Both the position numbers and the translations under genes were made by a program. Under the pieces are notes generated by a model. The model did not search any database and was not told where the DNA came from. It worked only from the letters and a program-made list of their open reading frames with translations. Shown here one piece after another: positions 1,472 through 31,465 of a DNA stretch of 64,000 bases. The DNA lies in the IMG/VR virus record IMGVR_UViG_3300045256_000188, positions 1 to 64,000 of that record. The stretch is one strand, 5' to 3'. The stretch comes from a virus. Position 1 is the first letter of the stretch, and every line of letters starts with the position of its first letter.

Positions 1472-1525
1472 GTTCTTCACACAACCTTCATACTCCGTGC
1501 GACCCGGCTTACTCAAAGCTAGGGC

Positions 1526-1550
1526 GTTATGACACTTATCGTGCCATAAC
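1526..1550. promoter_or_regulatory. Imperfect inverted repeat between sigma and phosphoesterase genes
   Basis: Two 10-base arms (1526-1535 and 1541-1550) pair with one mismatch around a 5-base loop. No T-run follows, so this could be an operator or a weak terminator. The rest of the 158-bp gap shows nothing further. Confidence 0.35.
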
Positions 1551-1629
1551 AAGCTCTGGGGAAGCTCACGCTAAAGGGTCTGCTCGAACATGCTATTCAC
1601 CCCCAAACTGCACCGAAAGGGTTCCTACC

Positions 1630-2496
1630 GTGGCCAACCGAAAGAAGGCTGTTCCGGCTAAGCAGGCCGTGAATACTCAGCAGGAAGCTGCCATCCTGTG
1701 CATGACGGACCTGCACTACGGCAAAAAGACAGATTCCTTCAACCAGGACATCTTCGAGCAAGAGATCCTCCGGCTCACAGAAACGATGCAGTCTCGCCGC
1801 GAAGAATTCGCCGGCCGCAACATCACTGAACTCGTCTGCTGCATCCTTGGGGACATCAACGACGGGTCCGAGATTTATCCGACCCAGCCTCACCACCAAG
1901 TCGAAACGAACGTCGAAGTCCAAGCCGAAGAAATCACCGAGATTCTGACGCCCTTCTTCCAGAAGATGAAGGAAGTCTGGGGTAACGTACGGATCGAGAC
2001 GGTCCCAGGCAACCACGGTCGGAGCGGCCGGTTCGCCCACGACTTCGCCTCGTGGGACACCGTGACCTACAAATACCTCCGCGGAAAACTGGCGAGCGAC
2101 GACATCAAGGTGGGGATCAACAAGGGCGGCACGAACCCATTCCTCAGGAAAGTGAACGTGCTCGGTCACAATTACCTGATGTATCACGGGCACGACATCA
2201 AAATGTTCCAGGGTATCCCCTGGTACGGGATCTGGAACCGGGTGGCAAAGTGGGCCACAACCTCGACGCTGAGCCCGTTCGAAGTAATTATGATGGGCCA
2301 CTTCCACTCGTTCGCGGACAACACGCTGAACAAGATCCGGATTCTGACCAACGGCACGATGATCACCGACGACGATTGGGCTCTGCAGGTGCTCGGTCGT
2401 GAGTCGGACAACAAGTGGCACCTGTTCGGGGTGACCAAGGATAAGGCCGTCGATTGGCAGTACCCGGTTGATCTGGTGACTGGCGGCGGCCACTAA
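1630..2496 (+). CDS. Calcineurin-like metallophosphoesterase
   Basis: 288 residues starting with GTG. The full metal-binding set of the calcineurin-like phosphoesterase superfamily is present in order: TDLHYG (Asp27, His29), LGDIND (Asp75), PGNHG (Asn128, His129), YHGHD (near 183-187) and GHFHS (near 223-227). These residues normally hold two metal ions that hydrolyse phosphomonoesters or phosphodiesters. The substrate cannot be told from sequence; phage members are often linked to DNA or nucleotide processing. No signal peptide, so cytoplasmic. The membrane-protein gene follows after 10 bp, so the two are probably co-transcribed. Confidence 0.9.
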   Translation: MANRKKAVPAKQAVNTQQEAAILCMTDLHYGKKTDSFNQDIFEQEILRLTETMQSRREEFAGRNITELVCCILGDINDGSEIYPTQPHHQVETNVEVQAEEITEILTPFFQKMKEVWGNVRIETVPGNHGRSGRFAHDFASWDTVTYKYLRGKLASDDIKVGINKGGTNPFLRKVNVLGHNYLMYHGHDIKMFQGIPWYGIWNRVAKWATTSTLSPFEVIMMGHFHSFADNTLNKIRILTNGTMITDDDWALQVLGRESDNKWHLFGVTKDKAVDWQYPVDLVTGGGH

Positions 2497-2506
2497 GGAA
2501 TCGATC

Positions 2507-2848
2507 ATGACCCCTGACATGGTGAACGAACTCTTCGAATTCGTGGGCGGGCTGTTTCTCTGCCTGAACTGCTGGCGAATCCACAAGGATAAGCAGCTAA
2601 AGGGTGTGAGCTTCTGGTCCGTCTTCTTCTTTACGTCCTGGAACCTGTTCTTCTACCCCTCCATGGAGGCGTACTACAGCTTCTACGGAGGAATCCTGAT
2701 CGCCCTCGCCAACACCGTATGGATCGGGTTGGTGATATATTATAAAGTTCACAAACCTGCTTCGCCCAAAGATTGGGTAAAGCTGGCTCCGAGAGCACCG
2801 GAGCCAATCGTCGTGTGCCCTCGGTCCCTACTGGTGTACTATGCATAA
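2507..2848 (+). CDS. Small multi-span membrane protein
   Basis: 113 residues with an AAGGA site 7 bases before the ATG. Three hydrophobic stretches are visible: about 8-24, about 36-50 and about 60-80 (the last beginning with the segment SFYGGILIALANTVWIG). A basic loop follows. Family not recognised. A holin role is possible for a small phage membrane protein, but no lysis gene lies next to it, so this is not claimed. The stop overlaps the start of the glycosyltransferase gene by 8 bases, implying coupled translation. Confidence 0.7.
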   Translation: MTPDMVNELFEFVGGLFLCLNCWRIHKDKQLKGVSFWSVFFFTSWNLFFYPSMEAYYSFYGGILIALANTVWIGLVIYYKVHKPASPKDWVKLAPRAPEPIVVCPRSLLVYYA

Positions 2849-5384
2849 CGATTTCTGCACAGTAGTGGTCGTGGCGGAAGAAGGGGCAAAGCAGCTAGAA
2901 TTCTTCCTCCAGAACTACCGAAAGTGCTATCCCAAGGCTCCACTCCACGTCATTAGCGATGGCGTGAATGACCCAGAATATTCCAAGCTCTGCAAGAAGT
3001 ACAACGCTGACTACACCCTCGGCCGCTACTACAAGCGGATCGAATGTGGCGGTCTATGGTGGAAGCGGACCCTGGAAGTCGGGCTCAAGTATGGCAAGAA
3101 GTGGATCTTGAAGGTAGACCCCGACACCAAGTTCTGGCGGCCATTCAAAACGGCTCCCAAGCACCCGGTATCCGGCACCCACAACAACATCGGCAACCCC
3201 CACGAATACATCCAGGGCGGATGTCAGGCTATCCGCAAGGACATCGCCAAGAAAATCCTCGACTCCGGCATCCTGGCCAGCGACGAACTAACCAAGCACT
3301 GGAACTTCTGCCCAGATAAGAAGTTCCTGAACTCCTGGCTGCCCACCGGCTACTTCACCACCGATTTCTCCCTCGTCTTCATCCTCCGCAAGCTGGGGAT
3401 CGAGTTCGGTGATTGGACCGACGTCGGCTGTCAGTGGCGAGTCGCTCCACCCAACTTCGACGGCACCTACGCCGTTACCCACCCACACAAGGTCGCCGAC
3501 CACAAGCCGGTCGGGGTGACGGACAAGACGCCCATCACCATCATCACCACCTGCAAGGGCCGCAAGCACCATCTGGAGCAGACACTCCCGAAGTGGCTCA
3601 AAGAAAAGAACGTCAACGTCGTGGTCGTCGATTACAACTGCCCGCAGAACGTCGGCAATTGGGTAGAGAAGACCTACCCAGGAGTGCGGGTTGCTCGCGT
3701 CCACAATGAGCGGAAATTCCATCTCGCCAAAGCCCGAAACGTCGGTGCCAAGTACGCCCCAGCCGGCTGGTGGGTGTTCATGGATGCCGACATGATCGTG
3801 AAACCGGGTATCATGGACGAGATCCGCAAGGTACTCACCAAGGGCTATTATTACGTCGCCAGTCCACTCAAATGGGGGATGTGCGGTACTGTGGTGGTCC
3901 ACAGCGAGGACTACAAGAAGGCCGGTGGCTACGATGAGATCCTGTCGGGTTGGGGTGCTGAGGATCTCGACTTCTACGCTCGTCTCCGCCAGATGAACGT
4001 TCGCCCGGCGTTCTGGAATGGAACCTACGCTGAGAACATCCCGCATTCCGACGAGGAGCGTGTGAAGTTCTACGATAAGGCCAAGGAAGTGGCCCTAGTC
4101 CAGAACGGCAAGTACGTGCGAGCCAAGAACAAGCTTATGGTCAAGAACTGGAAGCTCTTGACCCTAGATGAGCGGAAGGCTCTGTGGGCTGATATCGTGG
4201 GCGATAATCAACCGAAAGCGGCACCGCCATCGAAGGGGAAGGCGAACCCAAAAACTGGCACCCACAAGTGCAAGTTCGAGATCAAGTTCGAGTGTGGCAA
4301 CTGCGGTCACAAGAGCACCTGCCGAGCGACGGTAGTATGCACTAACGAAGACTGTCCGAATAACCACTACCCGTGCGGACCTGGGGTGGTATCGAAGCCT
4401 GAGGACAAGTCGGGCGTTCCGGCCGACTTCTTCGGGAAGATCGACAAGAAGGGGGATGATCGAGCGGCGAGCTCTACCTCTTTCGAAACCGACGATAACC
4501 GGGGCGGTTTCCCCGGCGGCCACCACCACTCTCACGGTGGCCATCACTTCGCAGGCGGTGGACACCACGCAGGTGGGTCGCTGTCCCGCGGCAGCGGTGG
4601 CCACACCGGGGCGGTGGTGGGCACTGGTGGTTTTTACATCCCTCCACCCATTGTGAGGAAGCCGATGACGAACATCAGCGTCGTGAACCACTCGACCATC
4701 CACCTTGGTATGAGCCTGGAAGAACTGTGCCGGGTGGGGATGGACTACCTAGAACTCTTGGCCCAGTTCTGGCCAGGAGTCCAGGCGAATCTGATCCCGA
4801 CCAAGGTGATCCTGCCGAACACCCACGCCCTGGTCATCATGGACGATCCAGACCAGAACCAGCAACTGCTTGGTTATCGCGATCAAACCCCGGACGGGTT
4901 CCCACTGGCGAAGTGCTTCGCCAAGGCGGAGATGGTCGAAGGAGTACCGGTGACCGTGACCTTCACCCACGAACTCGGCGAGTTCCGGGTGGACCCGAAC
5001 AACAGCAAGAGTGCGGTCAACAGCGATGGGGTTACCCACGCCGTTGAGATTTGCGATCCGGTCGAAGACGACTGGTTCCAGCACAACGGTGTTCAGGTGG
5101 CGAACTTCGTGCTCCCGTCGTGGTACGAGTCGTTCCACAAGACGGGTTCCACCAAGTTCGACTACATGGGCCTTCTGTCCCGGCCATTCTCGATGGCTCC
5201 GGGTGGGTTCACCACGGTCCGGTCTTCGGCCGGGCAGTGGATGCAGGTGCACGGGAGTCACCCGAAGCTGGAAGATCTGGCCGGGAAGGACCAGCGGGAA
5301 TGGCGGGGTGATCTGCGGAAAAACCAGCATCACGCTTCGACGCGGCACGCTCACAACAGCTACCTACGGACTGGCCGCAAGTAA
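2841..5384 (+). CDS. Two-domain glycosyltransferase with zinc-like cluster and His-rich linker
   Basis: 847 residues. Residues 1-220 resemble a GT-A fold transferase with a DPD metal-binding motif at 93-95. A second GT-A unit (about 228-420) has a DAD-type motif near 314 and the GWGAEDLDF signature near 371 typical of family-2/7C galactosyltransferases. A segment at about 477-515 contains CxxC-type cysteine pairs like a zinc ribbon. A Gly/His-rich stretch (about 559-590) links to a C-terminal domain of roughly 230 residues that I do not recognise. It probably transfers two sugars to a virion or cell-envelope acceptor (inference). Two different catalytic units plus a metal-rich linker in one protein is unusual. 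Confidence 0.8.
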   Translation: MHNDFCTVVVVAEEGAKQLEFFLQNYRKCYPKAPLHVISDGVNDPEYSKLCKKYNADYTLGRYYKRIECGGLWWKRTLEVGLKYGKKWILKVDPDTKFWRPFKTAPKHPVSGTHNNIGNPHEYIQGGCQAIRKDIAKKILDSGILASDELTKHWNFCPDKKFLNSWLPTGYFTTDFSLVFILRKLGIEFGDWTDVGCQWRVAPPNFDGTYAVTHPHKVADHKPVGVTDKTPITIITTCKGRKHHLEQTLPKWLKEKNVNVVVVDYNCPQNVGNWVEKTYPGVRVARVHNERKFHLAKARNVGAKYAPAGWWVFMDADMIVKPGIMDEIRKVLTKGYYYVASPLKWGMCGTVVVHSEDYKKAGGYDEILSGWGAEDLDFYARLRQMNVRPAFWNGTYAENIPHSDEERVKFYDKAKEVALVQNGKYVRAKNKLMVKNWKLLTLDERKALWADIVGDNQPKAAPPSKGKANPKTGTHKCKFEIKFECGNCGHKSTCRATVVCTNEDCPNNHYPCGPGVVSKPEDKSGVPADFFGKIDKKGDDRAASSTSFETDDNRGGFPGGHHHSHGGHHFAGGGHHAGGSLSRGSGGHTGAVVGTGGFYIPPPIVRKPMTNISVVNHSTIHLGMSLEELCRVGMDYLELLAQFWPGVQANLIPTKVILPNTHALVIMDDPDQNQQLLGYRDQTPDGFPLAKCFAKAEMVEGVPVTVTFTHELGEFRVDPNNSKSAVNSDGVTHAVEICDPVEDDWFQHNGVQVANFVLPSWYESFHKTGSTKFDYMGLLSRPFSMAPGGFTTVRSSAGQWMQVHGSHPKLEDLAGKDQREWRGDLRKNQHHASTRHAHNSYLRTGRK

Positions 5385-5819: not shown

Positions 5820-6104
5820 TCAGATGTGGTACTCCGGTTCCCGCCCCCAAGTCTGCAACAGGTCATAAATCGGGCGGTCACCGTTGATATTGTAGTACAC
5901 GCCAGCCGTGTCGGGGTTTTCGAACTCCTGGAAGAACAGCATGTTGCAATTCTTTGGATACTGCGAGTAATCATACTCGCCAGCGTTCACGGCTGACATA
6001 CTCTTAAGTAGTCTCTCCTTCTCGACGTCGTCGATAACACCGGGATGGAGACACACATAGTGCTGGTGAGTGTGGTGATTCCAGAAGATAATGACGGTGG
6101 TCAT
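5820..6104 (-). CDS. Hypothetical protein
   Basis: 94 residues, Tyr- and His-rich, with an N-terminal FWNHHTHQHY segment. No family recognised. It follows the 6120-6500 gene by 15 bp on the same strand, so the two are probably one transcript. Confidence 0.55.
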   Translation of the reverse strand: MTTVIIFWNHHTHQHYVCLHPGVIDDVEKERLLKSMSAVNAGEYDYSQYPKNCNMLFFQEFENPDTAGVYYNINGDRPIYDLLQTWGREPEYHI

Positions 6105-6119
6105 GCCGTCACAACACCG

Positions 6120-6500
6120 TCAGCCGCCGCCATGGATCTTGAGCAACTTCTCACTCATGATCATTGAGTTGACCCGCATGTAGTCGTGGATATCCAACTC
6201 TTCCGGATTCCACTCTTTCATCTGCTCGTGGATGAAAGCGAGGATTTTGGTGACGTGATCGGGGTCGGTATAGGGGAACCGTTGGACCTTCTTGACGCGA
6301 GCAGACGAGGCCACCGCTTCGGCCTCTTTGAAGCCCACGACGACCAGCCCGGCCATGTGGGGGGCGTCGATGCGGATGATCTCGCGAACGCCTCCGTCGT
6401 AAGCGGAGAGCCGAAAAGACCCGCCCTCCGGCATAGTGATGCCAGCTTTGACTGCGGCGAGAGCGTTATCGGCGATCGATGGTGTGGTTTCGTCAGTCAT
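6120..6500 (-). CDS. Hypothetical protein
   Basis: 126 residues beginning MTDETTPSIAD. An AAAGGAGA site lies well placed before the ATG. Mixed alpha/beta composition, no signal peptide, no family recognised. Likely co-transcribed with 5820-6104. Confidence 0.6.
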   Translation of the reverse strand: MTDETTPSIADNALAAVKAGITMPEGGSFRLSAYDGGVREIIRIDAPHMAGLVVVGFKEAEAVASSARVKKVQRFPYTDPDHVTKILAFIHEQMKEWNPEELDIHDYMRVNSMIMSEKLLKIHGGG

Positions 6501-6529
6501 GGGGTTCTCCTTTGCTCCTATATACAGCA

Positions 6530-6555
6530 GAACCCGCCGAACGGCCAGCGGGTTC
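6530..6555 (-). terminator. Possible terminator hairpin
   Basis: 8-bp perfect stem (6530-6537 with 6548-6555), 10-base loop, located just downstream of the exported-protein gene on the minus strand. No strong T-run. Confidence 0.4.
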
Positions 6556-6570
6556 TCAGACTGTCACTCC

Positions 6571-7029
6571 TTACTTGGCAGGCGACGGCGTGATCGGCCA
6601 CAGAATGAAGCTGCCGGGCTGGATACCGGCCTCGATGTAGTAGTTCCCGGATGGGATGTTGCCCTGGCTTTGGATCGTCAGCGGCTGCTGACCGGGGTAG
6701 GCCGACGTGACCGGCTGGCCCTGCACTACGGGCTGGCTCATCACGACGCCGTTCTGGATCGGCTGGCTGTAGGTGTAGCTCGGCTGCTGGAACTCGCCGA
6801 TGACGACGGGGCAGCCGGTGGCGGAACACTCGCCGACCGAAGCTGGGGCCGACTGGCCCACGAACCCGCTGAAGCCAAACCCGCCGCAGGACGAGCGGAC
6901 GAAGCCCCCGCTCGTAAACGCCGGCTGGGAGCTACCGCAGCCGCCCTTGCTCTTCCGACCGAACGCCTGGGCGTCGGTACTCGTGGCCAGAACAGCCGCG
7001 ACCGCCAGCCCGAAAATCAGTCCACGCAT
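6571..7029 (-). CDS. Small exported Gly/Gln/Ser-rich protein
   Basis: 152 residues from the second ATG. That start is chosen because AAGGAGGT lies 8 bases before it but only 2 bases before the first ATG at 7035. An N-terminal signal peptide (MRGLIFGLAVAAVLATS, then AQA) is clear. The mature part is low complexity: cysteine-containing Gly/Ser repeats, then Gln/Pro/Tyr-rich sequence. Function unknown. Exported low-complexity proteins of this kind are common in planctomycetes (weak analogy). Confidence 0.6.
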   Translation of the reverse strand: MRGLIFGLAVAAVLATSTDAQAFGRKSKGGCGSSQPAFTSGGFVRSSCGGFGFSGFVGQSAPASVGECSATGCPVVIGEFQQPSYTYSQPIQNGVVMSQPVVQGQPVTSAYPGQQPLTIQSQGNIPSGNYYIEAGIQPGSFILWPITPSPAK

Positions 7030-7052
7030 CTCCATCGACCTCCTTGGTGATC

Positions 7053-7071
7053 CCGCACTCCTATCGTGCGG
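7053..7071 (-). terminator. Small hairpin between minus-strand genes
   Basis: 6-bp stem (7053-7058 with 7066-7071) and 7-base loop, downstream of the 7095-7364 gene and upstream of the exported-protein gene. Weak terminator at best. Confidence 0.3.
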
Positions 7072-7094
7072 AACGACTTAAATACAGGAGGACG

Positions 7095-7364
7095 TCAGAT
7101 CTCGACAGGTGTACGTCCGGCTCGGCGTTTGGACTTGATGAAGGGATTGCGAGAACAGGGCAGTCTGCGGGCTTCGGCTTTGGTGGGAGCTAACGGGATC
7201 GTGTGCTTGACGGGAACTGCTGTGACGTGACGGGCGAGTCTGGTGTCCGGCCACCGGTAGAAGACCGACGTGCCGATTTCGATGTGATTCTTACATACCC
7301 AGCACTTACGCGGCTGGTCCAGGACCGCGACGGGTCCTTCTTTTGGAAGTCGAGAGATCACCAT
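7095..7364 (-). CDS. Hypothetical protein with CxxC motif
   Basis: 89 residues; an AAGGAA site precedes the ATG at a good distance. A CWVC pair near residues 21-24 followed by an IEIGTSVFY strand looks like half of a small zinc-binding fold. The C-terminus is basic. It starts inside the last 59 bases of the gene at 7306-7611, consistent with coupled translation. No family recognised. Confidence 0.55.
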   Translation of the reverse strand: MVISRLPKEGPVAVLDQPRKCWVCKNHIEIGTSVFYRWPDTRLARHVTAVPVKHTIPLAPTKAEARRLPCSRNPFIKSKRRAGRTPVEI

Positions 7365-7611
7365 GATTATTCCTTACGGCGAGATCGATAGCCTCTTGGG
7401 GAGTCCGACCGAAATAATACCGGGCGTTGCCAATCCGGAATCTGTAACAGTCGCCGTCTGCCAGGAGTCCGCGAATGGTCGCTATCTCAGCGTCGGACAG
7501 CAAGCTTCTCAGATGAAGGACAACGCTGTTGACGTCTGAGTTCGGGCTGAGCCGATCCAGGTGCCACGAGCGAAGATTGTCTGGAATTGTCACCTTCATA
7601 TGTGCAGCCAC
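7306..7611 (-). CDS. Hypothetical protein
   Basis: 101 residues from a GTG start; an ATG four codons later (7599) is an equally good start. Segment NARYYFGRTPQEAIDLAV looks like a conserved small phage-protein motif, but I cannot name the family. Basic C-terminal tail. Overlaps the downstream gene by 59 bases. Confidence 0.5.
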   Translation of the reverse strand: MAAHMKVTIPDNLRSWHLDRLSPNSDVNSVVLHLRSLLSDAEIATIRGLLADGDCYRFRIGNARYYFGRTPQEAIDLAVRNNHGDLSTSKRRTRRGPGPAA

Positions 7612-13094: not shown

Positions 13095-13262
13095 GGCGAC
13101 CTCCTTGTGGGTTCTCTAAATACGACAACGGCTGGGGACAGCCCCGGCCTTTTCCGCGTAGTTGGTTGGTGATTTTCCAGCGCCATCGCGCCCCACTACA
13201 GATGTCACCTCCATTGTTAAGGGGTCGGTGTCCCAGGGAGCGACCCAGAACCCTTCGACGCC

Positions 13263-13301
13263 TTATCTTCCAATGCGAATTTCCACAAACCACTCATTTA
13301 T
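13263..13301 (-). pseudogene. Fossil 3' end of a DNA methyltransferase gene
   Basis: Thirteen codons (INEWFVEIRIGR and stop) match the C-terminus of the methyltransferase fusion at 15322 (NEWFVEICAGR and stop), with DNA similarity continuing over about 35 bp. It sits just beyond the end of the EDxHD-Mom gene, so that gene appears to have replaced the body of a second methyltransferase copy. The rest of 13095-13354 has nothing recognisable. Confidence 0.6.
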
Positions 13302-13354: not shown

Positions 13355-15148
13355 TCAGCGACTTCTGGATGGCGTGCCTGACAGTGGCCTGGCGGCGCTT
13401 TGGTATCGCCTCTCTAGCACAAACCTCAATTTTCCCGTCCCAAAAACCTTCTTGTAGCCGAACTTGTCGGCATAGGCTGCTTCTTTCATCGACATTTTCA
13501 CGGCGCGCTCGTAGAGCGTCTTTTTGTGCATCACCCAGCCGTGCTCGTCTACGTACCAGTAATCTGGGCGAATTACCTTGTCCTGCTTGAAATTGAGCGC
13601 TTTGTAGACCGCCCCGTCGTGATTGAATGTAGTGTCACAGTACGAGATGACAAACTTGTACTTCTTATCTAACTGCTTCAGGCACCTACTAACGAACCAG
13701 CTGGCGAAATTGTGCTTCTGATACCGTGGATGGATACACAGCCGACTCAATTCGACAGTCTCAGCCAATGTGAACTCGCCAGTGTCTACGTTCTGGCGCA
13801 CCGGAGGCGAAAAAACGCATACCGCGATGAGCTTATCTTCTAGATATGCCCCGTGGGCTATGCCGCCGCGTCCGGCGTTAGCCAAGTAGTGATACTTGGA
13901 CAACAACAACCTATAATCTACGGCGTCAGCTTTCCTGATTACAATGTCCTTGAAGGAGAACGATGCTATTTCCAACTCCGTTAGCCCAAGCCAATATTTC
14001 AAAGTCTCGACTACTTTCTCTTTGCAACCGAACTCGTGCTCCCACAGGTATTTCAGTTCGTGGCTACCGCCGCAATACCTGGCCACGTACATCGCTTTGG
14101 CCTTATCCACACGCACAGCTCGCGCCAGGGAATGCCAATAATCGCCTTGGCACTCAATCACCAATAATGGCTTGTTGGCCCGTGGGATTACACAGTCGAA
14201 ATTATATGGACCGATGGTGCACTCCGGATCAGCCGCCCTGTCGGCGTACTCCCGGAAGTATCGTATCCCCAGATCGTCCAGAATACTGTAAAGAGTCGTC
14301 TGTAGGCCGGAGACGCGCGGCTGTGCTTCCCGTGCTTTCGCCATACGTTCTCGGAATTCGTCACTCTCCCAAACTTTCCTAATCCTCTCTGCATTAGCTT
14401 CTCGCAATCCTGGGTCTGACCATACAATCTTCATCAGGTTTGAGATCTTCTGTCTCTTGAGCGGATCGGCCCATATCCTCTGCTGGATAGCCGACATCTC
14501 TGCTTTCTTCTCATCGGTCCATACTAAAACCTGGACCGCTCGCATAGCTTCGACGCGTTCGGGGCTGTCCCAGTAATCCCGGAGAATGTCGGCCATTTTC
14601 TCACGGAGCGTAATATCAGACCACACAATCTTCTGAATAGTCGCTTGTTTGCGGCGGTACTCCGGCTGAGCCCAGAGGTCCTTCGAGCCCTCGGACAGCT
14701 TCCGTCGGAGTTCCGGCGTTACCCGCGCCTCCGATGACGCAGCAGCAGCGCTCCGCTTATCGTCCGTCCACGCTTTCTTCATGCGTTCCGATTGAAGAGC
14801 CGCAAAGTCCTCTGGGCCACTTATGCCGTGCTTTTTGCAGAGACGCTCCAAGGCTGATACTGAACCGCCGACAACTGCGACGATCTCTTGCAATGACTTG
14901 GTAGGACGGAGTTGCCTGACCTGTTCTATGGTCTCTGGAGTATCTAGGTTCGATTTGTTGCATAAGGCTGCGGTCTCAGCCACACTCCGTTTCAGCCCCA
15001 AGTGCACCAGTAGCTTTCCTATGGTCCTAGCTGGCTTCCTGTAAATTGCCCCAATCTCCTTAGCAGTTTTCCCTTCCGAAAATAGCCTAATAATATCCTG
15101 CTTCTGGGTGTCACTGAACTGCTGATGAACTGAGATAGGCGCTGGCAT
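13355..15148 (-). CDS. EDxHD/Vsr-like nuclease fused to a Mom-like DNA-modification domain
   Basis: 597 residues. The start at 15148 (MPAPISVHQ) has an AAAGGA site; an earlier start at 15199 would lie inside a terminator hairpin. Order: helix-turn-helix region (about 10-110); several repeats of an arginine/tryptophan-rich DNA-binding unit (about 120-285); a nuclease core with YNFDCVIP and LLVIECQGDYWH, the arrangement of Vsr/EDxHD homing endonucleases; then about 190 residues with ELSRLCIHP and SYCDTTFNHDGAVYKALNF, resembling the GNAT-like Mom protein of phage Mu, which modifies adenine in DNA. It probably cleaves specific sites and may modify DNA. Located between fossil copies of capsid and methyltransferase genes. 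Confidence 0.7.
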   Translation of the reverse strand: MPAPISVHQQFSDTQKQDIIRLFSEGKTAKEIGAIYRKPARTIGKLLVHLGLKRSVAETAALCNKSNLDTPETIEQVRQLRPTKSLQEIVAVVGGSVSALERLCKKHGISGPEDFAALQSERMKKAWTDDKRSAAAASSEARVTPELRRKLSEGSKDLWAQPEYRRKQATIQKIVWSDITLREKMADILRDYWDSPERVEAMRAVQVLVWTDEKKAEMSAIQQRIWADPLKRQKISNLMKIVWSDPGLREANAERIRKVWESDEFRERMAKAREAQPRVSGLQTTLYSILDDLGIRYFREYADRAADPECTIGPYNFDCVIPRANKPLLVIECQGDYWHSLARAVRVDKAKAMYVARYCGGSHELKYLWEHEFGCKEKVVETLKYWLGLTELEIASFSFKDIVIRKADAVDYRLLLSKYHYLANAGRGGIAHGAYLEDKLIAVCVFSPPVRQNVDTGEFTLAETVELSRLCIHPRYQKHNFASWFVSRCLKQLDKKYKFVISYCDTTFNHDGAVYKALNFKQDKVIRPDYWYVDEHGWVMHKKTLYERAVKMSMKEAAYADKFGYKKVFGTGKLRFVLERRYQSAARPLSGTPSRSR

Positions 15149-15177: not shown

Positions 15178-15219
15178 GACGCGCCCCAGAAAGAAACAAT
15201 AGTCTTTCCGGGACGCGTC
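15178..15219 (-). terminator. Strong hairpin, terminator of the fossil capsid copy
   Basis: 17-bp stem (two wobble pairs on the RNA) with an 8-base loop. It lies just 3' of the capsid-gene remnant, the same relative place as the hairpin after the intact capsid gene, and upstream of the nuclease-Mom start. Confidence 0.7.
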
Positions 15220-15233
15220 AGCATGAGACTGTT

Positions 15234-15304
15234 TTAGAGGTTGCTGACAGTGATTACGCTGTCAGGTCCAGCACGGTCGGCGTGCTGAGCAGCGGGACCA
15301 TCTC
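15234..15304 (-). pseudogene. Fossil 3' end of a second major capsid protein gene
   Basis: Two short frames match the C-terminus of the intact capsid protein: PLLSTPTVLD (intact: same residues) and VITVSNL followed by stop (intact: VVTVSNL and stop). About 27 codons between them are deleted and the frame shifts. The nucleotide sequence is diverged, so the event is old. Placed immediately 3' of the LAGLIDADG-methyltransferase gene. Confidence 0.75.
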
Positions 15305-15321
15305 AGATATTAAGACCTAAC

Positions 15322-17034
15322 TTATCTTCCAGCACAAATTTCCACAAACCACTCATTCGGTGCTTTGTGTCGGGCGCGGCTCACTAAAGGTAGCGCATTG
15401 ATGATAAAATCAGCAGTCAAAGCATTCTTCATCGGTTTGTCCACGTGCAGTACAACCCGCTTCGCATGAGTTTTCGCCTTTTGAACTAGAGGACGCAAAA
15501 ACTCAGCATACCAAGTCTCAAACTTCCCATACTCAACCCCATCCAAATAATCCTCCTTGTTGTGGAAAGGCGGAGATGTAAGCACGAAATCCACATCGGA
15601 CCATATCACATCTTGCCATTTCAAGTTGTGAAGCTGGCAAGAAGAACCCACAAATTCTTTGATCTTCACTAGGCCAGGATAGGAAATACCAGGATCGGTA
15701 GCCTCATAATCGCAACCCGCAATTTTCGCAGCTAAAAGTCGATGCCCCCAACCAGCACAAGGGTCGAACCATTTCCCTTGAAGCCCAAAATGTTTGAGCG
15801 CAGCAATAATCACCGGGACACTCAACATGGAGGCCATGGTCAAACCAGCAAACCGCAGTTCTCGAATTAGACGGGCTGGACTTAAAGTCTTCCCAGGGGT
15901 AATGAATGCTTTGACCGCTCGTGCTACCGTCTTCGGAGCCTTAGCAAGTTCAGCTACAGAGACACCACCCTGACGGACGTGATAAGCAAGTGGTTGGTGA
16001 TGTAAGACTAGCTGATTCCCAGGAGCCAATCCTGTAGTAATTTGATTTTCACCAAGATACTGACCAATATCGATCGATTGACAAGCTAACCAATCACTAT
16101 CGCAATCGAATTTCTTTGATTGCCAACCACTACTGATGATAGTAGACACAAATTCGTTGATAATATCATGCCTGTCGGTCCTTGCCATAATCTCTGCTGC
16201 GGTCAACTTAAATTCGAAATCGTGGATATTGTTCCAAACGAAAGGTCGCAGACCTTGAAATTCGAGCCAGCGAGTGTATTTCCGTTCCAACCGAACCGAA
16301 TTATCGGAGTAGATAAAATTCCCAAACTTCGCGACATTGCCGCGATTGGCCCAGCGAAGCTCGTAAACCGATTTTCGCGGCTTCACTTGTGTAAATGGCC
16401 CACCAACCGCCGCAATACGACAATTGATCTTATTCAGCGCCCCATCGAATTTGCAGACAATATTACTGTACCATCGACGTTTACGACGGTGTTTCCTCTT
16501 CTGGCTACTGATGCACCCATCTCCGTCAAAATAGCCGCGAACAAAATGATGCAAAAGAAAGTCCGGCACTGTGTTGATTATTTCGAAGTTGATGCCATTT
16601 TTATAATCGAGCCAACCTAATTGCAGGAGAATCCTGGTCATTATCACATCATTGAATACCATCACCTTCCTAGGATGATTGTCTCTCAGATCGTCAAAGA
16701 ACTCACCTTTATAACCCAAGAAATCGGCCAACAATCGCAGATGCCCTTCATCCCGCTTCTGTAAAGAAACCCTGATAGTGCGGTATGTGCCCGCTGATTT
16801 GGCGATGCAACCATCGGCCAACATGAAACCTAACCAGTAAGCTTTTTCCGGAACATCAATCGTATCGAAAATGTGACTGTTAAGAACGAATGAACGCTCA
16901 CCTTTTGACTGACCTTTCAACCCAGCTTTTTTCATATATCGACGAACGGTAGTAACACTACAGTTTAACCGCTCAGCGATAGTTTTCTGTGGAATCTTCT
17001 GACGAGCCAATTTAATGATGTCGTCGGATAGCAT
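15322..17034 (-). CDS. LAGLIDADG homing endonuclease fused to a DNA methyltransferase
   Basis: 571 residues from ATG 17034; a TTG at 17085 is possible but lies in a hairpin loop. An N-terminal helix-turn-helix (KTIAERLNCSVTTVRRYMKK) is followed by a two-motif LAGLIDADG nuclease, with WLGFMLADGC and FVRGYFDGDGC both retaining the catalytic Asp. From about residue 310 a SAM-dependent DNA methyltransferase follows, with DPCAGWGHRLLAA (motif I) and TSPPFHNKEDY (motif IV, N4/N6-type SPPF). No intein splice blocks are present, so this is a free-standing fusion, not an intein. Visibly more AT-rich than the capsid gene upstream, consistent with transfer. It may cut unmodified genomes and protect its own. 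Confidence 0.8.
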   Translation of the reverse strand: MLSDDIIKLARQKIPQKTIAERLNCSVTTVRRYMKKAGLKGQSKGERSFVLNSHIFDTIDVPEKAYWLGFMLADGCIAKSAGTYRTIRVSLQKRDEGHLRLLADFLGYKGEFFDDLRDNHPRKVMVFNDVIMTRILLQLGWLDYKNGINFEIINTVPDFLLHHFVRGYFDGDGCISSQKRKHRRKRRWYSNIVCKFDGALNKINCRIAAVGGPFTQVKPRKSVYELRWANRGNVAKFGNFIYSDNSVRLERKYTRWLEFQGLRPFVWNNIHDFEFKLTAAEIMARTDRHDIINEFVSTIISSGWQSKKFDCDSDWLACQSIDIGQYLGENQITTGLAPGNQLVLHHQPLAYHVRQGGVSVAELAKAPKTVARAVKAFITPGKTLSPARLIRELRFAGLTMASMLSVPVIIAALKHFGLQGKWFDPCAGWGHRLLAAKIAGCDYEATDPGISYPGLVKIKEFVGSSCQLHNLKWQDVIWSDVDFVLTSPPFHNKEDYLDGVEYGKFETWYAEFLRPLVQKAKTHAKRVVLHVDKPMKNALTADFIINALPLVSRARHKAPNEWFVEICAGR

Positions 17035-17036
17035 CT

Positions 17037-17108
17037 TTAGTCCGTAAAAGTGTTCAGCACCGTTTAAATACGTTTGATTCGGCAACCATGAACACTTTTA
17101 CGGACTAA
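17037..17108 (-). promoter_or_regulatory. 20-bp perfect inverted repeat at the endonuclease start
   Basis: Arms 17037-17056 and 17089-17108 are perfect reverse complements around 32 bases. In the transcript the stem ends 2 bases before the ATG at 17034 and includes the only candidate Shine-Dalgarno bases (GGA). A stem that hides the initiation region would keep translation low on some transcripts, as is known for phage T4 I-TevI. It could instead be a nuclease or protein recognition site. Confidence 0.6.
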
Positions 17109-17152
17109 TAAACCACTAGAAAGATGAATATTTCTACGAAACCATAAATACA

Positions 17153-17180
17153 ACAAGAGGGGCCGTCAGGCCCCTCTTGT
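17153..17180 (-). terminator. Terminator after major capsid gene
   Basis: Perfect 12-bp stem with a GTCA loop, 18 bp beyond the capsid stop codon, followed on the minus strand by TTGTATTTAT. A good intrinsic terminator. Confidence 0.8.
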
Positions 17181-17198
17181 GCCGTTCTTGACGGGGTT

Positions 17199-18845
17199 TT
17201 ACAGGTTGCTGACTGTTACCACGCCATAGTACAGACCACCATCTTCGATCAGCTTCTTCCCATAGCGGGTCATAATACCCTTGTTCGGCGTGAAGGAGTT
17301 CGGGTCGAGTACGGTAGGAGTACTCAGGAGGGGGATATAGGGAGCATAGAAGTAGCCCGCGTCGAGCACCGAGTTCCCCTTGAAGCCCATCAGAATCTTG
17401 CAGTTCGGGAACAGCGGGTCCTTGTAGATCTTCATCTTGCCCTGGATCGAGCCGATGTTCATGATCCCGATGTCCACGCCCTCGGTGGTGAAGGCGTCGG
17501 AGGCACGGAAGTCGTTCAACTGCTCGAACTTGGACGCGATGTCCGCCGACATCACCATCCAGTTGGCCGGGCCGCGGAGGGTGGTCCGGTGGATGATGTT
17601 CGCCACTTCCAGGACCTTGTACATCAGGGCGATGTTGCGGTCCGTGAAGTTGACGCTCGCCCCGGCAGCGGTGGCGAAGTTGTGGTCGGCTCGGATCGCC
17701 GCAGCGATGATGAGGTCGTTGATGATCTCACGATCGATCTCGGCCACCATCTCGTCGGCCATCAGGTCGGTCAGGGTGGACTCAGCGTCGATGTTGTGCA
17801 CCGACTTGAGGTCCTGAGCGGCTTCCAGCGACCAGGAGGTCTTCAGCTTGCGGGTGATCGCAGCGACCGAATCACTGTCGATGCTCAGGGTCACTTCCGG
17901 CTGGAAGGGGTTGGCTTCCAGGTCGTACTCGTAGTTGACGCGGGCCACGGCCCCGACCGGGAAGGACCCAGCGGACAGGGTGACCTGGACGGCACCGGTC
18001 GAGTGGTTGAAGGTAGTCGCACCGGGAGTGCTGACGTCCACCGTCAGGGTGTCGGTGAACTCGGTGCAGTCGCCGACCAACACGACGTCAGGGTTGCCGT
18101 CGCTGTCGAAGCTCACCCGGAGGCACGGCGTGGCGTCGTCGCAGTTCGGGCTGGCGTCGGCGGCGGAGGCGAAAACCTCGACCACGACGGTGCCGGCCAG
18201 GACCGGACGGTGAGCCAGGGTCGCGGACACCACCGAGTTACCGGTGATCGTCGCGTCCTCGCCCCGGACTTCCTGCGAGGAGTAGTATGGGTCGAGAGCC
18301 CAGCCGTTCTGACGAGCGAAGCTCTGGGCGGTGTTCTGCCGCATGATCTGCGTGCCGGCGACCGTCTGGCCCTTCGTCAGAGCGTAGCGGTACCGGATGT
18401 AGAAGATCAGGCTGGCCGGCTGGCTCATCGGCTGGACGCCGACGAGGTTGTCCGCGATCAGCTTCGGGTACGACTTCCGGATCAGCGGCAGGGCGAACCG
18501 GGTGAAGTCGGCGATGTTCGCGGTGGTGGTCTGGTCTTCGAACAGCAGCGACCGCTTCTCCGGGTTCCAGGCGTTGAACTGGTTCTCCAGGATGGAGGCC
18601 ATCAGCCCGAACTTTTGGGGGCCGACTTCGCGGCACTTACTCAGAACCGGCGACCACTTGCGGACGAGTTGGTTCTTCTTCGACTCATGGATGACGGCGG
18701 CCTTGTGCAGGTCCGTCTCCTCGGTCAGCATACGACTGCCACGATTGACCCCTTCAGCGAGGTGCCGGCGAGCAGCGGGGGCAGCGGCCCGTGCTGCGGG
18801 AGCAGCCGGACGAGCAGCGAACCGTTGCGTGCGAGAAGGAAGCAT
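17199..18845 (-). CDS. Major capsid protein, T4 gp23 family
   Basis: 548 residues with an AGGAGA site before the ATG. After an Ala/Arg-rich N-terminus comes the conserved gp23-type segment FTRFALPLIRKSYPKLIADN followed by VGVQPMSQPASLIFYIRYRYA, and later SWSLEAAQDL, DLMADEMVAEID and a C-terminal region with GVVTVSNL. This is the HK97-fold shell protein that assembles around the gp22-like scaffold and is processed by the gp21-like protease encoded upstream. An insertion at about 200-290 with Cys and Asp/Thr-rich sequence may be a surface domain. No intein. A fossil of a second copy lies at 15234-15304. Confidence 0.92.
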   Translation of the reverse strand: MLPSRTQRFAARPAAPAARAAAPAARRHLAEGVNRGSRMLTEETDLHKAAVIHESKKNQLVRKWSPVLSKCREVGPQKFGLMASILENQFNAWNPEKRSLLFEDQTTTANIADFTRFALPLIRKSYPKLIADNLVGVQPMSQPASLIFYIRYRYALTKGQTVAGTQIMRQNTAQSFARQNGWALDPYYSSQEVRGEDATITGNSVVSATLAHRPVLAGTVVVEVFASAADASPNCDDATPCLRVSFDSDGNPDVVLVGDCTEFTDTLTVDVSTPGATTFNHSTGAVQVTLSAGSFPVGAVARVNYEYDLEANPFQPEVTLSIDSDSVAAITRKLKTSWSLEAAQDLKSVHNIDAESTLTDLMADEMVAEIDREIINDLIIAAAIRADHNFATAAGASVNFTDRNIALMYKVLEVANIIHRTTLRGPANWMVMSADIASKFEQLNDFRASDAFTTEGVDIGIMNIGSIQGKMKIYKDPLFPNCKILMGFKGNSVLDAGYFYAPYIPLLSTPTVLDPNSFTPNKGIMTRYGKKLIEDGGLYYGVVTVSNL

Positions 18846-20258: not shown

Positions 20259-22214
20259 TTAGCTCCGACGAGATGGCAGCCGGACGGGAACAGTCACCTT
20301 CTTGCGGTCCAACCCGAAATAGCCGTTGATCTCCTTGACGAGAAGGTCGTTGTAGACATCCTCGCTGAAGAGCTTCTTCTGCTGAACGATTGGCTTGATC
20401 CGCCGGTTAAGTCCTTCCTGAATGTTCAGGATGGCCCCATGCACCGACGGCTCCGCCACCACATCCCAGGTCACGAAAGTGTAACCCGGCATGACCCGGT
20501 AGACGTCCCGACCCTTGTGCTCCATCACTTCCATGTCGCCCACGCCGCGGGACGAGATACCGACGCGAACCTTGTGCTCGAACAGACCACGAAGCATCGC
20601 CCCACATGGCAGCTTGTGGAGCACTTCGGCTTCGCCATACACCTTCTTCCCCTCCAACCACACCTTGGTCATCAGGTGGGACAGGCGGTCGAGGTGAATC
20701 TTGGCATCGGAGTTACCGGTCCAGAATGAACAACCACCGGTTTCCATATAGAAATTGCCGTGGTCCACCGAAACGCAATAAATCCGACCGGTATGGTGGA
20801 TCTTCTCGATGATAGTAAACCGCGGATCTAGACAAACCGATCGCGTCCGCGACACATGAAGCTGATGAAGGGTCCGCTTGTCAACAGCCCGAATGGCTCG
20901 GCCGGCGAACATATAATCATTGCTCGGCTCAACCTTCGACAGCCGGCCGGCACCACCAACTTTGACCAAGCACTCATGCAGGTCCCGAATCAGTCGTTCG
21001 GACACGCTGGACACAGCCAGCCTGCTGTACACCCCTAAATCGAGTTTCTGGACCACAGCGGCGTCAGTCTTGACACTTAGCGAGCGGGAATGACGATCCT
21101 CGGCCCGTAGCATCCGACCGTCGCCAATCGCGAAAGAGTAGATCAGAGCTTCAAGACAATCATCCGACAACGACTTGATATCTTCGGGAATGAATTTATC
21201 GGCAACGCCACCTAGACGGCGTAGCCAATTCGCCAGCCGTGCATCGTTCGTGAGGAACCCGCGTTTGCAGGGGGTCCACTGCAGTTCATTTGACACCCCA
21301 TCTAGAATTTCAGACACCAATTTGCGACCATGTGGCGTCTTTTGAGCAATACAAACCCCATTACGACCATTCAGATTGCCCTTGGATAGATAAAGACCCA
21401 ACAACAGACAGAATTGCCTTGCGTCCATTACCAGAGGGTTGACGAGATGTGGCTTCTTGAGTTTAAAGGCGTAGGCAGCTTCTACACCAGGGATAGTGTA
21501 CAAAGATGACTGTGCCACTTTCCTACTAGCGGTCTTTGGGATGCGATAATGAGCGTAGCGTTTCCGGTTTAAGTATACGTCCTCGATGGTGGCGTAGATC
21601 TGGTGGCCGTGGCGGTCCTCCAGAAGCAGTCGATGTCCCGGCGTATACGAATCGCTGATGTTGGCGTTATGAATCCTATATGCAGGACCATCGTACGGCT
21701 CGTCGATTATCGCGTTGACCCGCGATTCCACGAACGAACCGGCGACCCGCGACCAAATCCGGTCACCCACCCGAACTTCTCGGAACTCCTTCCATCCGGA
21801 GGTGGTCATCAAACGGAAGTTTGTATCCAATCGGCAAGGGTGGTCAAATTCACCGGGGACAGCACGAGCCGCCACATCCTCCTGGATATTGCGGACCGCA
21901 GGGATCAGCACATCCTGAGTGCCGTAGAACCGGCCGTTGGCGTTCTCGACGTCACCGTTCTGGATCAGCCCGCTGATCTTCATGATCGGCTCTTCCCGGC
22001 CACCGACCCCCTCGCAGATGGACTGCTTGATGTCCATCACTTCGAATGGGAAAGTGTCCCGGATTAGCTGCATCCCAGCGGGAATGACGCCAGTCTCGGC
22101 GATCAACGCACGGTTGATCACACCCGACTGGAGCCGGGTGTTCTTGTCTTCGGAGAGAACGCCCTGGCGAACTAGGCCGGGGCTGATTCCCATTACGCGA
22201 CGGCTAGGTAACAT
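20259..22214 (-). CDS. Prohead protease, T4 gp21-like, with one intein
   Basis: 651 residues as translated, 276 after removal of the intein. An AAGGAG site precedes the ATG. Exteins carry the gp21/S78-type protease signature: GEFDHP ending with the catalytic His, then (after the intein) SDAKIHLDRLSH, YGEAEVL and the catalytic Ser in VGISSRGVGD. The enzyme is packaged in the prohead and cleaves scaffold and capsid proteins during maturation. The intein sits one residue after the catalytic His, so no active protease can exist before splicing. A degraded TnpB lies directly upstream. Confidence 0.9.
   Translation of the reverse strand: MLPSRRVMGISPGLVRQGVLSEDKNTRLQSGVINRALIAETGVIPAGMQLIRDTFPFEVMDIKQSICEGVGGREEPIMKISGLIQNGDVENANGRFYGTQDVLIPAVRNIQEDVAARAVPGEFDHPCRLDTNFRLMTTSGWKEFREVRVGDRIWSRVAGSFVESRVNAIIDEPYDGPAYRIHNANISDSYTPGHRLLLEDRHGHQIYATIEDVYLNRKRYAHYRIPKTASRKVAQSSLYTIPGVEAAYAFKLKKPHLVNPLVMDARQFCLLLGLYLSKGNLNGRNGVCIAQKTPHGRKLVSEILDGVSNELQWTPCKRGFLTNDARLANWLRRLGGVADKFIPEDIKSLSDDCLEALIYSFAIGDGRMLRAEDRHSRSLSVKTDAAVVQKLDLGVYSRLAVSSVSERLIRDLHECLVKVGGAGRLSKVEPSNDYMFAGRAIRAVDKRTLHQLHVSRTRSVCLDPRFTIIEKIHHTGRIYCVSVDHGNFYMETGGCSFWTGNSDAKIHLDRLSHLMTKVWLEGKKVYGEAEVLHKLPCGAMLRGLFEHKVRVGISSRGVGDMEVMEHKGRDVYRVMPGYTFVTWDVVAEPSVHGAILNIQEGLNRRIKPIVQQKKLFSEDVYNDLLVKEINGYFGLDRKKVTVPVRLPSRRS
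20712..21836 (-). mobile_element. Intein in prohead protease (375 aa)
   Basis: Starts at Cys (CRLDTNFRLMTTSGW) after DHP and ends WTGN before Ser; the penultimate residue is Gly instead of His. A two-motif LAGLIDADG domain is present, but motif 1 reads GLYLSKGN, with Lys where the metal-binding Asp/Glu should be. Motif 2 (FAIGDGRM) is intact. Endonuclease probably dead, splicing likely retained. Confidence 0.9.
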
Positions 22215-26036: not shown

Positions 26037-29000
26037 TTACAAGCCACTCACCGCCACCGGTAAGTCGGACTCCGTTATCTCTTCCGAGTCAGACTCCTCA
26101 GGCAGATCATGACCCACGGTGATGACGTTGTAGACTTCCCGAATTACCTCATCCCGGATGTCCTTAGGTACTGACCACTCGACGAGAAGCCCAGGGTCCT
26201 CGCTTGGATCGTACAACAACGGAACCTCAAGCCCCTCGGACATCACGATCTGGTTGGGCGTAGGTTTGCCCCTACACAGCCCATCCAACTCCTTGCTCTC
26301 CAGCACGGCCTGGAAACCGCTGGTAAACTCACGGTCCTCCGCAAACAGAGGCTTACCCAACCGATCAGCCCACTTGCGGACCAAGGACATCGCCTTGTTG
26401 CGTTGACCACTCTTCTTATACTCAGCCAGGAGACGCTTATCAGCCTCCCAGTCGAAGCCCGGCAGCTTCGATTCAGGGATAGCGTTGGGGTCGGTCATCG
26501 CCGCAGCTTCCGCCCCCGCCGCAGCAGGGTCAGGAGGAGCCCCACCAGCAGCAGGATCACCACCAGCAGCAGGATCACCACCAGCCGCAGGATCAGCGGG
26601 AACATCCAAGCCACCACCCCCACCACCCCCACCACCCCCACCACCCCCACCAGCAGCATCCCCACCGCCACTAACTGCCTCAGCGGTCATCTCCTTAAGT
26701 TCTTCGATCTCGTCCGGAGACAGATCGGTGAAGTTGGTGACAATCCACTCCTTCGGGAACCAGCCCAGAGCTTGCAGGTCGGTCATCACACCCACCCGCG
26801 TCTGCCACGTCTCGATCCGGTACAATTCCTCCATCGCAGAAGTAGCGGTCAGAGCGATCTCGAATCCCTTCAGATCCTCGACCGGATAACCACGCAAAGC
26901 GAGGTGGATGATGGCCACTTTGGTCAGACCGGTAGCCACCTCCCGTTGAACCCACTGCACCGACTTGGCGAACTCCGAATGCGACTGGCTGAGCGACTTC
27001 TCGCTCGCTTCCCCACTGCCCTCCCCGATACCCACACGAGAGAAGGGGATCTTCATGGGGGCGATCATCTTCTTCTTGAAGTATTCGATATCAGCGATCT
27101 TGTCCACGTTCTCGCCACCCGGCAGCACATCCACGTCCGGACCAGTGCCGTCAGGACGACGCGGCAAGAAGAAATCGTCTTCTTGGATAAGCGGCGAGTA
27201 CCGCTCGTCGAAACTCCCTGTCGAAGGGTTGTAGAACCGCTGCCGCTTGAAGTTGCGGGCGATCATCTGCATATATTCAGGCACTTCCTTCGGCGGAATC
27301 AAGCCAACCGGGATAGTGAACTTCCGCTTTTCAGGCGCGCGGGTATTCGCTTGCACATTACCATTGGAGATGAAATTATGGACCTCATCCTCAACAGTAA
27401 TATCATAGACTAGATCATCACCTACCTCCTCTACTCCCAAGATGGCCTCGGAAGCGTTCGAATGCCTCTCACCAGCCCTCACGATATAATCAGGATCTGG
27501 CAATTGTCTCTTGGTAAAGTAGAGAGACCAACCAACGGTGTCCGGCATAACTCTGCCGGGCTCTATCTCGTGACCGCCACTTCGTTCATGCTTCCGCACT
27601 AGGCCAACATCCCAGCCCAGGCGATGACAAAGTTCCTTGAGGTCCCTCAGCAGCAGCTCGTTGCAGCAATCAACCTCGCAAGACTCGGTATTACCGCCCT
27701 CGAACAGTCGGCGATGGCCGTCAGCATCAATATAGCCGTCAATGAACGCTTCCTGCACCGAGCGAGGCGACTGGAACACCCACGCCGGAATCCGCTTGTT
27801 AGCCGCCCCAGAAATGAAACCATTGTCAAGCATGAAATCATGCAACGGCTTTGAATTAATCGAAAACGAACCGAGCCTCCCACCAGAATCACCGGAAAAA
27901 GTAAGCTGGCCAACAAACGACGCAAACAACTTAGCATAATAATCATTGGTGTGGGCATCAGCACCAATAGCAAACCCAACCTGTCTGGTTACGCTGCCAG
28001 GACGATTCCGATGTGGCCTCGCCGACACGAAGCCGTCACCGACCATGAACCCGAACCACCTAGCAAAGTCTTCGGTAGCCACTTCAGGAATTGTGAAGGC
28101 TCTGCTGGCTGATTCGCGACCGCCAGCGGCCAACGACGACCGATCGAGTGGCACATACTCAGTGTGTTTCACCTGCGGCAGCAAGAAGCGATGATGGCTA
28201 GCGATGCCGTTACGCTTAACGATCAAGTCTTTGACATCAACGTATTCCAAACGAGCTGGGCGGTCCTTGTCTCGTTTATTCGAATAGGACGTCTCGACAA
28301 GGATCGGGTGGGTAGCATTACAAAAGATCTCCCGATGTTGTGAGTAGACGCGATAGATGACGTCCCGCCCATTGCATTGCCAGTCAATTACTTTAGTGAC
28401 TTTGGGCTGGCCGTCCTTGAAGCAGTAAACCTCGTCGCCGACCTTGAGATCCTTAATGGGGGTGTGGCCGGTAGGCGTCCACACCAGAGTATCACCCCTA
28501 AGGCAGATCCTATAGATAAGAGCAGCATCCTCCATGAGACGTAACTGCTTAAACGCCTTGCGGCCACCATCAAGAATTGAGTTGTGAACGACAACACCAT
28601 TGGCGTTGAAATTGTGGAAGCAAGAGGCGACTTGGATGTCACCGACCTCCAGACGACCGGCACTCTCAGCGCGGACGACATCCTCGGCCATATACGAGTT
28701 GGCGTCATCATACTCCGGGTCATGGACTACGATCTTGCTACCTGGAACGACGTATTTAGCCGGCACATACCGGCGGAATAACTTGCCGCCAGCCCCGCCC
28801 ATAACAGCCAAGATCGGGTGATCTTCACTGACCTCTATAGTCCGATACTTCGTGGTTATCCTCAACCCCGGCTTATAACCGCTGCAAACGGTCTGCCGGA
28901 CTGTCGTGGCCCTGGGTGTGAGCCCATCAAACGAGTAAACGACGTCGCCGCGTGTGAGATCCCGTAGTTGCTTGTACCCACCCGGTACCAGGATGGGTGT

Positions 29001-30880: not shown

Positions 30881-31465
30881 ATGCGTCGTCGCGTACTCCC
30901 AGGAGCGATCGGGGCCGGACTTCTCGGCGGTCTGCTGTGGTGGCTCACCGGCAGCCAACCGCCTCCGCCCGCTCCACAACCGCCACCAAACCCGGCTCCC
31001 ACACCGGCCCCAACCAACACCATCTCCCAATTACTCGACGCCCACAATCGCTACCGTGCCCAGCACAACGTCCCCGCCTTAGCCCTCAACGCCAAGCTCA
31101 CCGCTGCCGCCCAGAAGCATGCACGGTGGATGGCCAACAACCGAAGAATGAGCCACACCGGAGTCGGCGGCTCATCCTTCGCCGACCGCATCAGGGCGGA
31201 GGGCTACGACTTCCGGATGGGAGGAGAGAACATCGCGGCTGGCTATAAGTCCGTCGATGCTGCCATGACCGGCTGGATGAACAGTCCAGGCCACCGGGCC
31301 AACATCCTAAACCCAAACTATAAGGAGGTCGGGCTGGGGGTCGTCAACAACTACTGGTGTACCGTATTCGCTACCCCATTCACCAGCACCAACGCCGTCA
31401 CCAACTCGATCATCGAACTCCCCGGTGGCATCCGAGCCGGTGACCTCGACGAATTCGGGCCTTAA
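30881..31465 (+). CDS. CAP/SCP-domain protein with N-terminal membrane anchor
   Basis: 194 residues: a hydrophobic N-terminal segment (about 8-22), a Pro-rich spacer, and a CAP domain like bacterial YkwD, with AHNRYRAQHNVPAL, MSHTG, GENIAAG and WMNSPGHRANIL. CAP proteins are secreted; phage and bacterial roles are poorly known, though envelope binding is plausible. It lies on the opposite strand between terminase and portal genes and its TAA stop overlaps the terminase TAA in a shared TTAA. A GAGG site precedes the ATG. Probably an acquired accessory gene with its own promoter. Confidence 0.85.
   Translation: MRRRVLPGAIGAGLLGGLLWWLTGSQPPPPAPQPPPNPAPTPAPTNTISQLLDAHNRYRAQHNVPALALNAKLTAAAQKHARWMANNRRMSHTGVGGSSFADRIRAEGYDFRMGGENIAAGYKSVDAAMTGWMNSPGHRANILNPNYKEVGLGVVNNYWCTVFATPFTSTNAVTNSIIELPGGIRAGDLDEFGP

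Follow-up and report, generated by a model that had tools for sequence, protein, structure and literature searches.

A gene on the minus strand of a 64,000-nucleotide stretch of viral DNA (the window; the virus record behind it is 83 kb long) encodes a single-chain protein, P0001, that has an EDxHD/Vsr-like nuclease flanked by DNA-binding modules on its N-terminal side and a Mom-like GNAT domain on its C-terminal side. Comparison with related loci gives good support for reading this gene (13355–15148) as a free-standing homing element that would be aimed at the end of the major capsid gene, and we regard it as an evenly balanced matter whether its modification domain shields the intact target of the carrier. 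The homing reading is supported by the predicted domain identities, intact active-site residues, an insertion hot spot, a site-linked N-terminus, scars of older insertions, and presence/absence polymorphism in the related Hef family. Capsid-gene cleavage, DNA modification, copying by recombination and self-protection are activities that we infer from these sequence comparisons. An earlier note on this DNA had described the nuclease–Mom fusion and the recurrence of such fusions; its interpretation is partly supported by our results, and it overlooked the setting: homing elements occupy an insertion hot spot that follows the major capsid gene, and older insertions have left scars there.

The P0001 frame (597 aa) starts with the ATG at 15148, a choice backed by homologues that start MPxPxxV, and its stop ends at 13355. 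These are exactly the bounds noted earlier for the gene, which we place on the minus strand and which is the sole copy of the EDxHD-Mom type in the 83-kb record. Residues 1–150 (14699–15148) form an N-terminal DNA-binding domain, here named NADDR, which is a putative address for the capsid site. Residues 151–275 (14324–14698) are helical repeats of DNA-binding type, seen as repeated helices in the AlphaFold2 model and matching phrog_22215, and they are followed by the nuclease domain at residues 280–390 (13979–14311) and the GNAT domain at residues 398–580 (13409–13957). The AlphaFold2 model (pLDDT 85) predicts N-terminal helical modules of DNA-binding type, and HTH-type Pfam matches were weak in P0001 and over the cut-off in some of its relatives. 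The motifs on which the fusion had been recognized (FDCVIP and ECQGDYWH in the nuclease, SRLCIHP and SYCDTTFNHDGAVY in the GNAT domain) are all present.

The C-terminus of P0001 matched the Pfam Mom model PF25680 far over the cut-off (E=3.6e-17, residues 403–558) and a PHROG annotated 'Mom-like' (1e-25). When a profile of 34 relatives was searched against the PDB, two chains only were returned, 3r3p for the nuclease (E=5.4e-7) and the Mu Mom structure 8bv8 for the C-terminus (E=8e-6). The PDB molecule name of 3r3p is intron-encoded homing endonuclease, and we take this structure to be that of I-Bth0305I. The nuclease also gave a weak match, under the cut-off, to the Pfam restriction endonuclease model MTES_1575 (0.0015). 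A fold search of the PDB with the P0001 model ranked Mu Mom 8bv8 first (E=3.3e-8), with other GNAT enzymes lower, so that the structural comparison of the C-terminal domain suggested in the earlier note came out in favor of Mom over other acetyltransferases. PADLOC returned no match for P0001, and NCBIfam had no model for it.

Both catalytic domains appear intact. Among P0001 relatives, the nuclease residues E300, D318, E332, Q334, H339, D348 and K351 are almost invariant, with E300, D318, E332, H339 and D348 each kept in 31–33 of 33 sequences. The Mom residues Y421, R469, S483, D505 and Y515 are essentially invariant: within the 33-sequence set, Y421, D505 and Y515 are kept in all sequences that cover these positions, and S483 is present in 30 of 33 (one Thr, two gaps). 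Alignment to Mu Mom equates Y421 with Y59, S483 with S124, D505 with D149 and Y515 with Y159, and the PDB title of 8bv8 describes the S124 alanine mutant of Mu Mom as inactive. Collectively, these data confirm the three-part architecture of P0001. By sequence, fold and active-site residues the protein belongs to the Mom family, and it would presumably modify adenine.

The neighbor of this gene is, as had been claimed, a different nuclease–modification fusion (15322–17085, minus strand), composed of an HTH domain, a LAGLIDADG nuclease with Pfam matches over the cut-off, and an amino-methyltransferase with DPCxGWG and TSPPF motifs. A search with this fusion as query returned no relatives. Methyltransferase domains at the capsid site keep DPCxGWG and TSPP[FY], match nucleic-acid amino-methyltransferases and fold likewise. 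Upstream of both fusions stands the major capsid protein gene (17199–18845, minus strand; phrog_138, E=1.6e-80), and insertions concentrate at its 3′ end. A 20-bp perfect inverted repeat (17037–17108, minus strand) lies in the leader and about the start of the LAGLIDADG fusion; RNA folding of 17030–17198, a segment that also includes the capsid-gene terminator, gave z=-6.6. By analogy with regulated phage homing genes, this repeat may mask the start signal of the fusion. Inverted repeats that are similar yet different precede relatives in loci L034, L078 and L111 (such labels denote loci used for comparison).

Scars of successive insertions were found on both sides of the P0001 gene. Between it and the LAGLIDADG-methyltransferase gene sits a degenerate, shortened copy of a capsid-gene 3′ end (15234–15297, minus strand), which encodes PLLSTPTVLD ... 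VITVSNL followed by a stop. Its 33-nt part encoding PLLSTPTVLD is identical at 33/33 positions to the capsid gene of L051, the best of the compared loci, and at 25/33 to the capsid gene of the window itself, and the end of the piece forms a 29-nt repeat with 17196–17224 at the end of the capsid gene. We identify the piece as a capsid remnant because of the L051 match and the 29-nt repeat; gapped local alignment of the remnant with the window's own capsid gene scored no better than shuffles. Past this piece lies a G+C-rich inverted repeat that is a possible terminator (15178–15219, minus strand; GACGCGTCCC...GGGGCGCGTC), and downstream of the P0001 gene 37 nt (13262–13298, minus strand) survive from the end of a LAGLIDADG-methyltransferase gene, identical at 33 of 37 positions to the 3′ end of 15322–17085. 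The order of the window (full-length capsid gene, LAGLIDADG element, capsid fragment, P0001 element, fragment of the other element) is the layout that stacked homing would be expected to produce. A codon repeat of the capsid 'MTRYGKKLI' stretch before elements in other loci was suggestive by eye; in most loci it scored no higher than shuffled controls, and it was dropped.

Side observations concern other minus-strand genes of the window. Of the two inteins in a T4-like portal gene (26037–30797), one carries an HNH nuclease and the other a LAGLIDADG nuclease, and the terminase large subunit gene (31462–37134) is a single 1890-aa frame with three intein-splicing and three LAGLIDADG stretches. 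The head maturation protease (20259–22214) has an insert of ~355 aa that starts with Cys and ends before Ser, and this insert looks like an intein with a LAGLIDADG-type nuclease. On the plus strand, the product of 2841–5384 (847 aa) includes a family 2 glycosyltransferase domain, which may act on surface sugars of the phage or of the host.

We collected 80 loci with related capsid genes, of which 61 were non-redundant, and classified the region 3′ of the capsid gene. NADDR-EDxHD-Mom proteins stood behind the capsid gene in eight loci, the window included, LAGLIDADG-methyltransferase proteins in seven plus one partial, PD-(D/E)XK-methyltransferase proteins in seven, EndoVII-methyltransferase proteins in three and TnsA-like-methyltransferase proteins in two, along with about 15 lone EndoVII nucleases. 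We assign L089-type proteins to PD-(D/E)XK on account of their YVPDF...VEIKPPE motif, and a PDB profile search with these proteins gave nothing useful. Occupancy of the site is patchy among the related loci, and no pair of empty and occupied loci close enough to give exact P0001 junctions was found among them. Across 54 loci, 25 nuclease–modification fusion ORFs started within 2 kb behind the capsid gene, and the next 5 kb, to 7 kb downstream, held none in about 154 kb of sequence; eight lay upstream of it in about 278 kb, most of them at another insertion site, which follows the head protease gene. No intact lone modification ORF was present within ±7 kb of the 54 capsid loci, the sole lone one being truncated where its contig ends. 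Since the capsid-site proteins themselves served to build the domain models, these counts cover these families and not every possible one.

At this hot spot, then, at least five unrelated nuclease classes are each joined to a Mom or methyltransferase domain. The recurrence, which suggests selection for coupling cleavage to modification as the earlier note proposed, goes further than the note claimed: in related phages this one spot hosts five classes of nuclease and two types of modification domain. The accompanying claim that the combination arose twice at one locus needs to be divided: the two unrelated fusions do adjoin, but they lie side by side because both lineages occur at the capsid hot spot, and not through evolution of the pair in place.

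The N-terminal domain of P0001 was present in 8/8 EDxHD-Mom proteins of the capsid site and in 0/32 of those elsewhere (Fisher 1.3e-8, for rows that are related and so not independent). In a tree of the nuclease–Mom core, the capsid-site proteins may form one clade, and for this reason the association, taken alone, argues only weakly for a site-linked N-terminus. A second line of evidence does not depend on the nuclease tree: PD-(D/E)XK-methyltransferase proteins of the capsid site, and short ORFs there, begin with this same domain. Other copies of the nuclease–Mom core, with other N-termini, lie behind tail sheath, terminase, helicase and head protease genes; of the copies at the head-protease site, all but one share an N-terminus of another kind. 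L014 carries two EDxHD-Mom elements, 1445–3019 and 5962–7425, at two sites and with different N-termini. Searches with the N-terminal domains as single sequences yielded few relatives. In L127 (8676–10004) the capsid-site domain heads a protein whose nuclease matches both PD-(D/E)XK and EDxHD models in an ORF cut by the contig end. In L084 (9405–9911) and L096 (9381–9887) the domain stands alone in short nuclease-less ORFs that follow a lone EndoVII gene; these ORFs may be decayed elements, or may encode repressors.

Searches for relatives extended the family to known phage genes. A tblastn search with P0001 matched 113 phage records, and one with a Campylobacter Hef-like relative matched 410, many annotated as Hef-like homing endonuclease and some as 'nuclease/acetyltransferase'. 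The Hef alignment matched the P0001 family over residues 280–579, nuclease and GNAT domain together (hhalign 99.7%, E=2.5e-25). Campylobacter hef lies beside recA, a site that is occupied in all records with fully matching flanks; since no empty site was found there, we took the nrdA–nrdB site for Hef polymorphism. In the T4-like phage SG1, hef is located between nrdA and nrdB. This region matched 798 records, and just 17 of these reach ≥80% coverage of the query with hef included; in T2 and many other records the two flanks adjoin without an insert, and mobE takes the place in T4 and RB3. In PA5oct, a Hef-like homing endonuclease gene lies between two pieces annotated as DNA polymerase. Hef does not have the same GNAT residues as P0001, with HY changed to HL at the Y421 position and D changed to N at the D505 position in three of five sequences. 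The Hef GNAT domain may thus be inactive or act differently, and P0001, whose active site is closer to that of Mom, stands beside Hef as a sister branch and is not Hef proper. With nuclease homology, tethered DNA-binding modules and apparent mobility at a defined site, P0001 has the features of an EDxHD homing endonuclease, as judged from sequence.

We propose that the N-terminal domain guides P0001 to the 3′ end of the major capsid gene, where the EDxHD nuclease would cut element-free capsid loci of co-infecting phages. Repair would then copy the element and adjoining capsid-gene sequence into the cut genome, and the element would settle behind a capsid gene that stays whole. Because insertion leaves the capsid gene intact, a target open to cutting may persist in the carrier. 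The Mom-like domain would most likely modify adenine at or near this target in carrier DNA and so block its own nuclease, with P0001 acting somewhat like a single-chain restriction-modification enzyme. This protective role is suggested by the intact capsid gene and by its conserved end: the encoded protein end is near-invariant among carriers, and a codon comparison of carrier capsid 3′ ends, in which the target is only presumed to lie, revealed no element-specific recoding or codon signature. Hef is reported in its 2005 description to cut also the DNA of its own phage in vitro, which, if so, fits a need for protection in vivo.

Protection could also be achieved by other means. Yeast WHO elements escape self-cutting by replacing the 3′ end of their target gene, and the WHO clusters behind FBA1 contain gene 3′ fragments between stacked elements (PMC7282813). 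A comparable mode of homing, in which immunity comes from a replaced capsid-gene 3′ end and the Mom or methyltransferase domain is cargo against host restriction or has another role, is possible and to us a minority reading. The window shows this layout, with full-length gene, element, gene 3′ fragment and older element, and its capsid remnant also fits 3′ replacement of the WHO kind; lone EndoVII elements without modification domains and the altered GNAT residues of Hef point the same way. At about 86% identity near the capsid 3′ end, the closest relative, L051, gave no clean breakpoint in a sliding-identity comparison. Against this reading, carrier capsid 3′ ends share no common codon signature, the encoded protein end is near-invariant, and cargo alone leaves unexplained why five nuclease classes carry a fused modification domain when no intact free one is found. 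Self-protection would account for the Mom or methyltransferase domains of the five capsid-site classes and for the absence of lone modification ORFs other than the one cut by a contig end. It is not always needed, since lone EndoVII-type nucleases thrive at the capsid site without it.

The fusion of nuclease and modification domain in P0001 also fits a single-chain, type IIG-like restriction-modification layout. For the Mom-REase fusions of jumbo phages, a weapon has been proposed whose Mom domain would modify the phage's own genome at large and whose nuclease would destroy DNA of the host or of superinfecting phages (PMC7824862). Among the methyltransferase fusions at the capsid site of related loci, three had weak PADLOC matches to mad2 and type II MTase. 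We consider this reading rather unlikely for P0001, which itself has no PADLOC match: insertion at hot spots that follow essential genes, N-termini linked to the site, the nesting of scars and the presence of more than one copy in a genome mark homing and not a fixed phage gene, and PA5oct has a copy annotated as Hef-like homing endonuclease between two DNA polymerase pieces. Free-standing Mom genes do exist (Mu Mom, L050 and a 218-aa Mom-like ORF in L046), so a phage modification gene might have gained a nuclease by chance and acquired its neighbor by coincidence. The census disfavors this explanation, which we regard as very improbable, by the lack of an intact free modification gene around the 54 capsid loci and by the repeated fusion of unrelated nucleases at one spot.

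The homing reading with self-protection might extend to a class of self-immunizing homing endonucleases, with at least five nuclease classes and two modification chemistries, in which the modification domain protects the intact target of the carrier; we put this forward tentatively, as somewhat less probable than not. No description of homing endonucleases with modification domains as a class was found in the literature searched, subscription papers being mostly outside it. If the proposal is true, homing elements and restriction-modification enzymes merge into one mobile kind, specialized on conserved sites that survive insertion. Free-standing homing endonucleases that sit beside and not inside their target raise the question of why the carrier stays uncut, and recurrent fusion to a modification domain is a testable answer that also ties homing elements to how single-chain restriction-modification enzymes arose. 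N-terminal domains swapped between unrelated nucleases at one site offer a natural source of modules that would bind DNA where the capsid gene ends. A concrete reading is thereby available for hundreds of 'Hef-like' and 'Mom-like' phage genes, with a caution against taking every phage Mom–nuclease fusion as a tool of whole-genome modification.

The nuclease–Mom fusion itself is already published, and P0001 is a further member of that type. REase-Mom fusions were reported in jumbo phages and read as phage restriction-modification, with PA5oct cited for five momylating enzymes (PMC7824862). They have in common with P0001 a restriction-fold nuclease and a Mom-family GNAT in one protein, but homing, the hot spot and the site-linked N-terminus are not discussed there, and the word 'homing' is absent from the text. 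What is new is that unrelated homing nucleases have repeatedly been coupled, at one site, to modification domains. I-Bth0305I has the EDxHD nuclease domain (3r3p, E=5.4e-7) with DNA-binding modules; it differs in being intron-encoded (PMC3943268; PDB molecule name), and the solved chain is the catalytic domain only. Mu Mom (8bv8) has the GNAT domain, with S124, D149, Y159 and Y59 matched in P0001, but is a stand-alone protein without a nuclease. The yeast WHO elements (PMC7282813) likewise home behind a conserved gene and leave gene 3′ fragments between stacked elements, but are eukaryotic, use intein-zinc-finger nucleases and, in the portion of their description consulted, are given no modification domain. 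Hef of phage U5 and the Hef-like proteins of T4-like, Campylobacter and other phages share with P0001 the order of nuclease then GNAT-like domain and show presence/absence polymorphism beside essential genes, whereas their N-termini are others and the residues matching Y421 and D505 are altered.
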